Position numbers and translations under genes: made by a program. This document shows positions 17,971 through 20,302 of a stretch of 61,977 nucleotides of DNA, piece by piece. The notes beneath the pieces are model-generated. The model did not search any database. It was not told the origin of the DNA and worked only from the letters and a program-made list of their open reading frames with translations. The stretch comes from an uncultured Bacteroidota bacterium (GTDB lineage Bacteria; Bacteroidota; Bacteroidia; UKL13-3): positions 1-61,977 of the forward strand of contig CAISCU010000038.1 of NCBI GenBank assembly GCA_903883965.1. The letters are read 5' to 3'. Position 1 is the first letter of the stretch. Every line of letters begins with the position of its first letter.

Positions 17971-17980
17971 ACCTGTTTAG

Positions 17981-18054
17981 TCGGGGTGGCAGGATTCGAA
18001 CCTACGACCTCCACATCCCAAATGTGGCGCGATACCAGGCTACGCTACACCCCG
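17981..18054 (-). tRNA. tRNA-Pro (anticodon TGG)
   Basis: 74 nt. The acceptor stem CGGGGTG pairs with CACCCCG followed by discriminator A; the anticodon stem CCACA/TGTGG encloses the loop TTTGGGA with anticodon TGG; the T arm has GGTTCGAATCC. CCA is not encoded: the gene is followed by CTAAA on its own strand. It is a single gene with its own promoter and terminator. Confidence 0.96.
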
Positions 18055-18155: not shown

Positions 18156-19022
18156 GCAAAGCTTAAAAAATGTTTGGTGTTTTTATACTTTTTAAATAAA
18201 AACAGTAAAGGTTGGTGAGGATTCAAACTAATTATTGGAATATGAGCTTTTCAAATACCACTGCAACTGGTAGACAAATTTGTAAAAACAATAGTGGGGC
18301 CTATACTGCTGTTCTAGTTGAAATAAATTAGCTTGAAGTTGTTTCCATTGGTTGCGCTTCCAATTGAAAGTAGCAAAATTGAAACACTAAATATTTAGTT
18401 GCTAAAGCACTCAAATTAAATTCCCTGAGACCATAAATAATAGATAGATAGATAATCCTGTAAAGTTGACTTAAAGTTGATGCACAATCAATAATATCAT
18501 TTCATTTGAAACTATTGATCATACAATGTACTTCCTTCAGAAAATTTATTATAAAAATATACTGTTGAACTGAACGTTTATGGATACTTTTTTAACAATT
18601 GACTTGGCTTTCTTTTTAGGCTATTGTCATGAGTTGATTGTGCTTAAGTTTCAAGTTCTTTAAGAAGCAATTAACTATTAGTATCTAAAATCTAATCATT
18701 GAATTTTATTCAGATATTTCAACTGTTAGCAGGTTTTGTTTAGGCAAGATTGGCTTCCAAAGGAAGCATTTATTCTTTATCGGGTTTTAGTTTGTTAAGC
18801 CGAGATATCGTATTGAAGTATACAATAATATCGTAATTGGAACTTCTATTTGAAGCTTTTATTCGTAATTAGCTACAATTGAATAATTGAGCATACCTCA
18901 GTAGTTAAAAAGGGCAAACTCAATACTTCTGGAAAAGTATTTTGTACTAATGAATGCGCATCCAAAGGATGCTAACATTTATTGAGATTATGGTTTGATG
19001 GCCGAATAGTATAAAAGCAATC
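18156..19022. other. Non-coding region with decayed hairpin repeats
   Basis: No credible gene on either strand. It contains a short TAGA tandem near 18440 and scattered remnants of the hairpin array to the right: a degraded copy near 18606-18621 whose flank (CTATTGTCATGAG) resembles that of the 19023 copy (CTATTGTCACGAG), an intact stem with loop AAA at 18753-18767, and a covariant stem GCATCC-AAA-GGATGC at 18958-18972. The decay increases towards the left. Confidence 0.6.
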
Positions 19023-20033
19023 GCTTCCTTGGGAAGCTATTGTCACGAGCCAATTACTGTTTAGGAAGTACTGCTTCCTTCGGAAGCTGTCGTTCCTAAG
19101 CAAGTTTGGTTGGGTAAGTAACGCTTCCTTCGGAAGCTATGGTTCGCAAGCAAGTTTGGATGGATAAGTGACGCTTCCTTCGGAAGCTATGGTTCTTGTA
19201 GCAAATACTGTTTGGCAATTTCACTTCCTTCGGAAGCTAATGTTCTTGTAGCTAATACTGTTTGGCAATTTCGCTTCCTTCGGAAGCTAATGTATTGTAG
19301 GCAAGTTTAGAAGGTAAATGACCGCTTCCTTCGGAAGCTATTGTTTCAACCTCAACGCTTACTTCGGAAGCTTTCATCCTAGAACAAAGTCTGTTTGATG
19401 AGATCGCTTCCTTCGGAAGCTAATGTTCTTGTAGCTAATACTGTTTGGCAATTTCGCTTCCTTCGGAAGCTAATGTATTGAAGGCAAGTTTAGAAGGTAA
19501 ATGACCGCTTCCTTCGGAAGCTATTGTTCGCAAACAAGTTTGGATAGACAACTGACGCTTCCTTCGGAAGCTATTGAATGATAGACAACGCTTCCTTCGG
19601 AAGCTTTGGTATTGAATAACACGCTTCCTTCGGAAGCTGTCGTTCGCAAGCAAGTTTGGATAGACAACTGACGCTTCCTTCGGAAGCTATTGAATGATAG
19701 ACAACGCTTCCTTCGGAAGCTTTCATACAATAGCAATTTTTATTTGGGGATTCTGCTTCCTTCGGAAGCTGTCGTTCGCAAGCAAGTTTGGATGGACAAC
19801 TGACGCTTCCTTCGGAAGCTATTGAATGATAGACAACGCTTCCTTCGGAAGCTTTCATACAATAGCAATTTTTATTTGAGGATGCCGCTTCCTTCGGAAG
19901 CTGTCGTTCGCAAGCAAGTTTGGATGGGTAAGTAACGCTTCCTTCGGAAGCTATTGAATGATAGACAACGCTTCCTTCGGAAGCTTTCATACAATAGCAA
20001 TTTTTATTTGAGGATGCCGCTTCCTTCGGAAGC
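19023..20033. repeat. Array of 23 short hairpins (GCTTCC-TTC-GGAAGC)
   Basis: A 15-bp palindrome with a 6-bp stem and 3-nt loop recurs 23 times. Starts: 19023 (loop TTG), 19073, 19123, 19173, 19223 (A at base 1), 19273, 19324, 19357 (stem variant), 19406, 19456, 19507, 19557, 19590, 19623, 19673, 19706, 19755, 19805, 19838, 19887, 19937, 19970 and 20019. Twenty copies are exact. Start-to-start distances are 49-51 or 33 bp. Flanks recur in families, for example TATTGAATGATAGACAAC and TTCGCAAGCAAGTTTGGAT. There is no transposase or cas gene nearby. The array lies between two tRNA genes that point away from the minus end. Confidence 0.97.
19623..20018. repeat. Three tandem 132-bp higher-order units within the hairpin array
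   Basis: Hairpins at 19623/19673/19706, 19755/19805/19838 and 19887/19937/19970 repeat the spacing 50-33-49 bp exactly, with the same three spacers in the same order and only scattered substitutions. The next copy starts at 20019 and is cut off after one hairpin. Confidence 0.92.
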
Positions 20034-20047
20034 TGGTATTGTTGAAT

Positions 20048-20076
20048 GGGATTAGCGCTCTGCGAGCGCTGATCCC
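20048..20076. repeat. 13-bp hairpin with TGC loop after the array
   Basis: GGGAT-T-AGCGCTC, loop TGC, GAGCGCT-G-ATCCC: 12 Watson-Crick pairs plus one T-G wobble. It has the same triloop architecture as the array repeats but an unrelated stem sequence. Confidence 0.8.
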
Positions 20077-20103
20077 AAGGGGAGGCTATAAACAAGTAAA
20101 GTC

Positions 20104-20128
20104 AGCAGCTGCGCTGCTTGATTTTTTT
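20104..20128 (+). terminator. Rightward hairpin terminator of the array region
   Basis: 6-bp GC-rich stem AGCAGC/GCTGCT with loop TGC, then TGA and seven T. It would stop any transcript that runs rightward through the hairpin array. Confidence 0.6.
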
Positions 20129-20173
20129 GTGCCCCAAATTTTACTCAAGCAAGCTTGGTAAAATTTGGGGCAC

Positions 20174-20198
20174 AAAAAAACCTGCAATTGCTTGCAGG
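20174..20198 (-). terminator. Terminator of tRNA-Ser
   Basis: On the minus strand, a 7-bp stem CCTGCAA/TTGCAGG with a 4-nt loop is followed by seven T, starting about 12 nt after the tRNA. Confidence 0.8.
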
Positions 20199-20209
20199 CT
20201 TTACTTGTT

Positions 20210-20302
20210 TGGCGGAGAGAGCGGGATTCGAACCCGCGATACACCTTGACAGCGTATGACGGTTTAGCAAACCGTTGGTTTCAGCCTCTCACCCATCTCT
20301 CC
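20210..20302 (-). tRNA. tRNA-Ser (anticodon GCT)
   Basis: Class II tRNA of 90 nt (20213-20302) plus CCA at 20210-20212. The acceptor GGAGAGA pairs with TCTCTCC and is followed by discriminator G; the anticodon stem ACGGT/ACCGT encloses TTGCTAA with anticodon GCT; a long variable arm is present and the T arm reads GGTTCGAATCC. Unlike tRNA-Pro in this window, the bases after the discriminator are CCA, which may be real or chance. Confidence 0.96.

Follow-up and report, generated by a model that had tools for sequence, protein, structure and literature searches.

The 61,977-nt stretch of DNA analyzed here (the window) belongs to a freshwater Bacteroidota bacterium and contains, adjoining a tRNA-Ser gene, an array of short hairpins. 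The question raised by this locus is what such an array is, and how it came to lie there. In a search that tolerated up to two mismatches, the palindrome GCTTCC-TTC-GGAAGC (also written GCTTCCTTCGGAAGC, of which the plus strand likewise holds 23 copies at no more than one mismatch) was detected 23 times on the plus strand. Twenty of the copies were exact, while the other three, starting at 19023, 19223 and 19357, carried one mismatch; 100 shuffles of the window gave a mean of 0.02 copies and a maximum of 1. Consecutive hairpins start 33, 49, 50 or 51 bp apart, with no other distances, and the intervening spacers measure either 17-18 or 33-36 nt. The hairpins are far more alike (mean pairwise identity, 0.97) than the long spacers (0.64) or the short ones (0.80). 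In all of these respects, i.e., the number of copies, the two preferred spacings and the superior conservation of the palindrome, the initial annotation was accurate.

The spacers sort into families, whose members are up to 100% identical within the array. In the tRNA-proximal third, a block of three units (∼132 bp) is present three times, at 95-97% identity; such near-identical blocks are difficult for short-read assembly, and the copy number may therefore be off. The array shares with CRISPR a palindromic repeat, regular spacing and polarity of growth. CRISPR, however, has repeats of 23-48 bp and unique spacers of one length, whereas the repeat here is 15 bp long, and its spacers are of two sizes and recur both within and between arrays. 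The earlier view that the locus is neither CRISPR nor a simple tandem repeat was thus upheld.

The surroundings of the array are listed in Table 1. About 177 bp separate the array from the tRNA-Ser(GCT) 3' end; the array is thus most naturally read on the minus strand, as is the tRNA, and the hairpin there is GCTTCC-GAA-GGAAGC. Inspection of the open reading frames in the interval between tRNA-Pro and tRNA-Ser revealed no convincing gene, and a 174-codon frame at 19571-20095 was dismissed as an artefact of the repeat. Since degenerate hairpins continue outwards on the tRNA-distal side (GCATCCTTTGGATGC at 18958-18972 and, on the minus strand, GCTTCCTTTGGAAGC at 18753-18767), the array extends further than originally described, and these outliers are probably its old end.

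Table 1. Features of the tRNA-Ser(GCT) locus, in coordinates of the window (strand: - minus,. unassigned).
Feature	Position	Strand	Remark
tRNA-Pro(TGG)	17980..18054	-	with tRNA-Ser, delimits the site found empty in G002, a sister species
Degenerate outlying hairpins GCATCCTTTGGATGC, GCTTCCTTTGGAAGC	18753..18972	.	hairpin search, repeat analysis
Hairpin array, 23 copies of GCTTCC-GAA-GGAAGC	19023..20033	-	33 or 49-51 bp spacing
T-arm-like tail hairpin GGGATCA-GCGCTCGCAGAGCGC-TAATCCC	20048..20076	-	attR-like junction
C-rich linker TATAGCCTCCCC	20079..20090	-
X' arm CTTTACTTGTT	20091..20101	-	complementary to X
Hairpin 3, AGCAGC-GCA-GCTGCT	20104..20118	.	with plus-strand T-run
Central hairpin 2	20122..20180	.	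23-nt perfect arms, 20122-20144 and 20158-20180; inverted repeat I1
Hairpin 1 CCTGCAAGCAATTGCAGG, then T-run	20181..20198	-	terminator of tRNA-Ser
X arm AACAAGTAAAG	20199..20209	-	first base directly after the tRNA CCA
tRNA 3' half from the T-loop, AATCCCGCTCTCTCCGCCA	20210..20228	-	attL-like end of the element
tRNA-Ser(GCT)	20210..20302	-	host gene of the element; tRNA search

The distribution of the 15-mer was analyzed further within the genome and among its relatives. In the genome itself (2.48 Mb, 55 contigs), 36 copies were found at no more than one mismatch, all of them in or beside two tRNA-Ser arrays. The second array is divided between two contigs, lying at the end of one (contig 28) and at the start of the other (contig 8), downstream of tRNA-Ser(TGA) and in the same orientation; these contigs overlap by 135 bp and therefore carry a single array. 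Three more arrays occur in two sister species: one in G001, behind tRNA-Ser(GCT), which lies across two contigs and, judging from the contig ends, would be a single split array, and two in G003, behind tRNA-Ser(GCT) and tRNA-Ser(GGA). All 5 arrays of the genus are hence located downstream of a tRNA-Ser gene (anticodons GCT, TGA and GGA), in the same orientation relative to the tRNA. On the strand of the tRNA, nearly all copies show a GAA loop; a single inverted copy closes the G003 GGA array. Their length ranges from 5 to 23 units. Other genomes of the family contain at most a stray one-mismatch match to the 15-mer. In a wider scan of genome contigs, matches of two hairpins appeared in unrelated phyla, with no tRNA-Ser nearby, and were treated as unrelated. 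An unrelated GC-rich metagenome-assembled genome carries seven exact GCTTCCGAAGGAAGC hairpins (L064, 2713-3250), the last ones with a 56-bp period, again with no tRNA-Ser nearby.

The tRNA-Ser association, the second array, the arrays of the relatives and the sequence that intervenes between tRNA and array had all escaped the initial annotation, which considered that the array might be a one-off expansion or an assembly artefact. The genomes are indeed drafts, and the second array is split between contigs. The same architecture, periods and orientation were nevertheless observed in separate assemblies of two other species, and G001 and G003 carry an array orthologous to that of the window. We therefore consider an artefact or a one-off expansion to be very improbable.

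The array was also suspected of being a REP/BIME-like element, i.e., a palindrome spread by a RAYT (Y1 transposase) that has since been lost or acts from elsewhere. The RAYT-associated palindromes of REP/BIME systems (PMC2817692, PMC3733652, PMC3116915) resemble it in being short, regularly spaced and clustered in intergenic regions, and hairpins with a similar loop do flank Y1_Tnp genes in the relatives. In G002, 51 copies of the GACCCYGAAGGGGTC hairpin family, spaced by ∼52 bp, form several clusters (L126, L135 and L172) around RAYT (Y1_Tnp) genes and at other sites, including one behind tRNA-Ser(GGA). The genome under study has a single Y1_Tnp/RAYT-like gene, which is flanked by AACTCCGYTAGGAGTT instead of the GCTTCC hairpin, and the RAYT of G003 has no such hairpins at its flanks. 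Moreover, copies of the GCTTCC hairpin are not dispersed, either in this genome or in G001 and G003, and they keep one orientation instead of alternating within clusters. Thus, true REP-like arrays exist in the genus, but the GCTTCC arrays were not found to be among them; a RAYT/REP origin was rejected, and we regard it as improbable. The Y1_Tnp locus itself (L084; C10:71627-72904) bears eleven AACTCCGYTAGGAGTT hairpins with a 56-bp period and resembles a REP/RAYT locus.

Between the tRNA gene and the array lies a gene-free element of ∼170 bp, and the same construction was observed before each array. Its parts follow in a constant order: an X arm, a terminator hairpin with its T-run, a central hairpin, a third hairpin, an X' arm, a C-rich linker and a tail hairpin. 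The central hairpin bridges the T-run of the first terminator to an A-run, such that two terminators stand back to back in a large palindrome. Hairpin 3 with its T-run is a terminator for plus-strand transcription through the array. X begins 0-4 nt after the tRNA end (at base 0 in most cases), and in most loci 13-22 nt separate X' from the tail. The X and X' arms differ in sequence from one locus to another yet pair with each other: among 28 loci, the mean pairing score was 11.1 for the arms of the same locus versus 6.5 for swapped ones. The sequence flanking the tail resembles the T-stem of the tRNA at its own locus more closely than it does the T-stems of other tRNAs (permutation p=0.0008). 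In a MAFFT alignment the variable arms fail to align, and RNAalifold accordingly recovered only pairing between the tail and the tRNA T-stem. Behind tRNA-Ser(TGA), an exact copy of the X arm AGAAGATGAAAGC is found within one of the array spacers at that locus (L032, 3590-3605; L031, 60-95), which suggests sequence exchange between element and array.

The element is not restricted to the genus. A strict tail pattern, GGATCACGNAGTNATCC, was found in 14 of 395 Bacteroidia genomes. In 15 of the 17 tail stretches that were fetched, a tRNA-Ser, -Arg or -Pro gene is located immediately upstream on the same strand; of the other two, one starts at the edge of its contig, and in the second (L216) no tRNA was recognized on the 5' side. 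A covariance model built for the entire element matched 331 of the 395 genomes (E≤0.001), of which the weak matches may represent just a tRNA end and a terminator, since the model includes both, and the safe set consists of the many full-length matches below 1e-18. A degenerate tRNA-like sequence with a tail-like hairpin in its T-arm, followed by a tRNA element, was observed behind tRNA-Ser(GGA) in another genome (L238 of G294, 1500-1890).

In the relatives, the element carries the marks of integration. At the tail hairpin, a displaced tRNA 3' half would start at AATCCC; in the window it has decayed to AATCCCATTC, leaving only the degraded AATCCC, and the integration is therefore read from other genomes. 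A perfect or near repeat of the tRNA 3' end (17-19 nt, 95-100% identity) was detected for 10 of 89 tRNA genes, beginning at the T-loop (AATCC...) at positions +108 to +351, each time behind a tail-like hairpin; shuffled controls gave none. In G075 (L254) the element is present four times head to tail, with boundaries that fall exactly at the T-loop of a tRNA-Ser gene: at each of them GGGTTC(ACGTNAGT) is joined to AATCCCTCTCTCTCCGCCA, and chromosomal sequence resumes after the final displaced tRNA end. Two copies each were found in G109 (tRNA-Val) and G122 (tRNA-Ser). Tails also occur in tandem in genomes of other families, namely G094 (5 and 4 tails on two contigs, 101-104 bp apart) and G152 (4 tails, 121-122 bp apart). 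In these two genomes (L203, L202 and L206), the tail hairpin GGATCACGNAGTAATCC itself forms arrays of ∼102 or 122 bp period, behind tRNA-Ser and tRNA-Pro. The complementary observation comes from G002, in which the orthologous tRNA-Ser(GCT)/tRNA-Pro site measures ∼240 bp and has neither element nor array, i.e., an empty site. The tRNA-end repeats and the stacking are the footprint that insertion at the tRNA T-loop would be expected to leave, as judged from sequence, although duplication without an enzyme may alternatively account for it.

The genomic islands of tRNA genes, which accrete by means of tyrosine integrases (Islander, PMC4383910), offer the nearest parallel: they too insert at the 3' end of a tRNA gene and restore it, leave the displaced 3' fragment as a direct repeat and stack serially. 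In contrast to them, the element is only ∼170 bp long, far too short to encode an enzyme; it carries no genes, its body is a terminator palindrome, no integrase was identified for it, and a hairpin array lies beyond the junction. An archaeal palindrome behind tRNA genes also has a fixed place, but it is single and short, lies ∼10 bp from the tRNA, and has neither array nor tRNA-end repeat. At the gathering scores of Rfam 15, the window and 12 element loci yielded only tRNAs, and at a low threshold the sole additional matches were sub-threshold ones to unrelated families. Plasmid sequences gave no match, and no tail was found in viral contigs. One viral contig carries two GCTTCC hairpins. No earlier description of the element was found in the literature searched, and the miniature tRNA element beside an array is apparently undescribed.

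On these grounds, insertion of the ∼170-bp element in the T-loop of a tRNA gene would restore the tRNA 3' half and add a back-to-back terminator palindrome, while at the far end a junction hairpin resembling a T-arm would remain, with the former tRNA 3' end displaced beyond it. This far end would read GGGATCACGNAGT joined to AATCCC, and an excised circle would carry the junction GGGATCACGNAGTAATCCC.

The arrays always start just past the tail, in one orientation, and the tails of the genus hold an inner hairpin of their own. In the G003 GCT locus this hairpin, GCTCCCGCAGGGAGC, is identical to the array hairpin at 12 of 15 positions (a match expected by chance at about 0.008 per tail) and is located exactly 33 bp from the first array hairpin. 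We suppose that the array was seeded when the junction hairpin was duplicated along with its flank; this would account for the short period (15 + 18 = 33 bp). The link between junction hairpin and array hairpin is only suggestive: the inner hairpins of the other tails match at 8 and 11 of 15 positions, and the similarity of the post-tail flanks to the short spacers was not significant (p 0.18-0.55), so that seeding by the tail is offered as a proposal and not as a result. The element, furthermore, does not force an array. The tRNA-Ser(TGA) gene of G003 has the element alone, and in G002 the element behind tRNA-Ser(GGA) is followed by REP-type hairpins that are also present elsewhere in that genome; flanks of tRNA-Ser may attract unrelated repeats.

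Palindromes can provoke duplication. Two papers (PMC4686876, PMC10527192) describe GCGAAGC as an unusually stable DNA mini-hairpin, and the C-GAA-G loop that each array hairpin has on the minus strand is alike. Such a stable hairpin on one strand would provoke duplication by slippage or unequal exchange during replication, presumably on the tRNA side; only intact hairpins would therefore keep being copied, while the spacers drift. Imperfect hairpins (n=12) gather towards the tRNA-distal end, their mean relative position being 0.81 on a 0-to-1 scale (p=5e-5), which indicates that the array grows or is homogenized on the tRNA side. Such growth or homogenization fits both the distal damage and the spacer families that are common to arrays at different tRNA genes and in different species, with identities of 0.94-0.97 for some.

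The same polarity and shared spacers, together with the two discrete unit lengths and the way in which copies of the parent element are stacked head to tail at the T-loop, would also be consistent with accretion by a site-specific recombinase, in which each unit is a minimal recombination site added singly at the tRNA side, in the manner of CRISPR spacers or integron cassettes. The units of the array, however, lack a tRNA 3' end, the three-unit blocks of 132 bp were duplicated together, as in tandem duplication, and no recombinase was identified. This mechanism appears slightly less probable still than a REP origin.

The main rival of hairpin-driven duplication is a functional array, whose hairpins would be under selection as binding sites (for a DNA- or single-strand-binding protein or a recombinase of the element) or as a structured RNA ending at the plus-strand terminator at 20104-20130. 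In its favor, the 15-mer persists across three species and three tRNA loci whose spacers differ, the hairpins are better conserved than the spacers, and the plus-strand terminator lies just past the array. Conversely, no change involving both arms was seen within the arrays, only the outlier GCATCCTTTGGATGC being compensated, and the number of units varies from 5 to 23, one element having no array. Damage that accumulates at one end is, in addition, expected of copying and not of uniform selection. Weak stems in the spacers were considered as part of an RNA fold and rejected, as they do not covary (p=0.52). Selection on the hairpins is hence rather unlikely, if less so than the other alternatives.

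The array is non-coding, fast-evolving, tandem and anchored to tRNA-Ser, and its cellular function is putative at most. Most likely it is just a by-product of duplication driven by the hairpins, and it might secondarily block transcription in both directions behind the tRNA. That it was seeded at an integration junction and then expanded by such duplication is an explanation that we hold with about even confidence. With somewhat less, we propose more broadly that Bacteroidia harbor widespread, undescribed, gene-free mini-elements of ∼170 bp that insert in tRNA T-loops (Ser, Arg, Pro and Val), reconstitute the end of the tRNA, supply a terminator acting in both directions and seed, at the far junction, tandem hairpin arrays that grow on the tRNA side. 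If so, many tRNA 3' ends and terminators in Bacteroidia would be supplied by a tiny mobile element and not inherited with the tRNA, and tRNA ends would act as nurseries for arrays of tandem hairpins. This would also explain why the contigs of draft genomes break at tRNA genes, and the progression from single element to stacked elements to hairpin array would provide a natural series for measuring hairpin-driven tandem growth.
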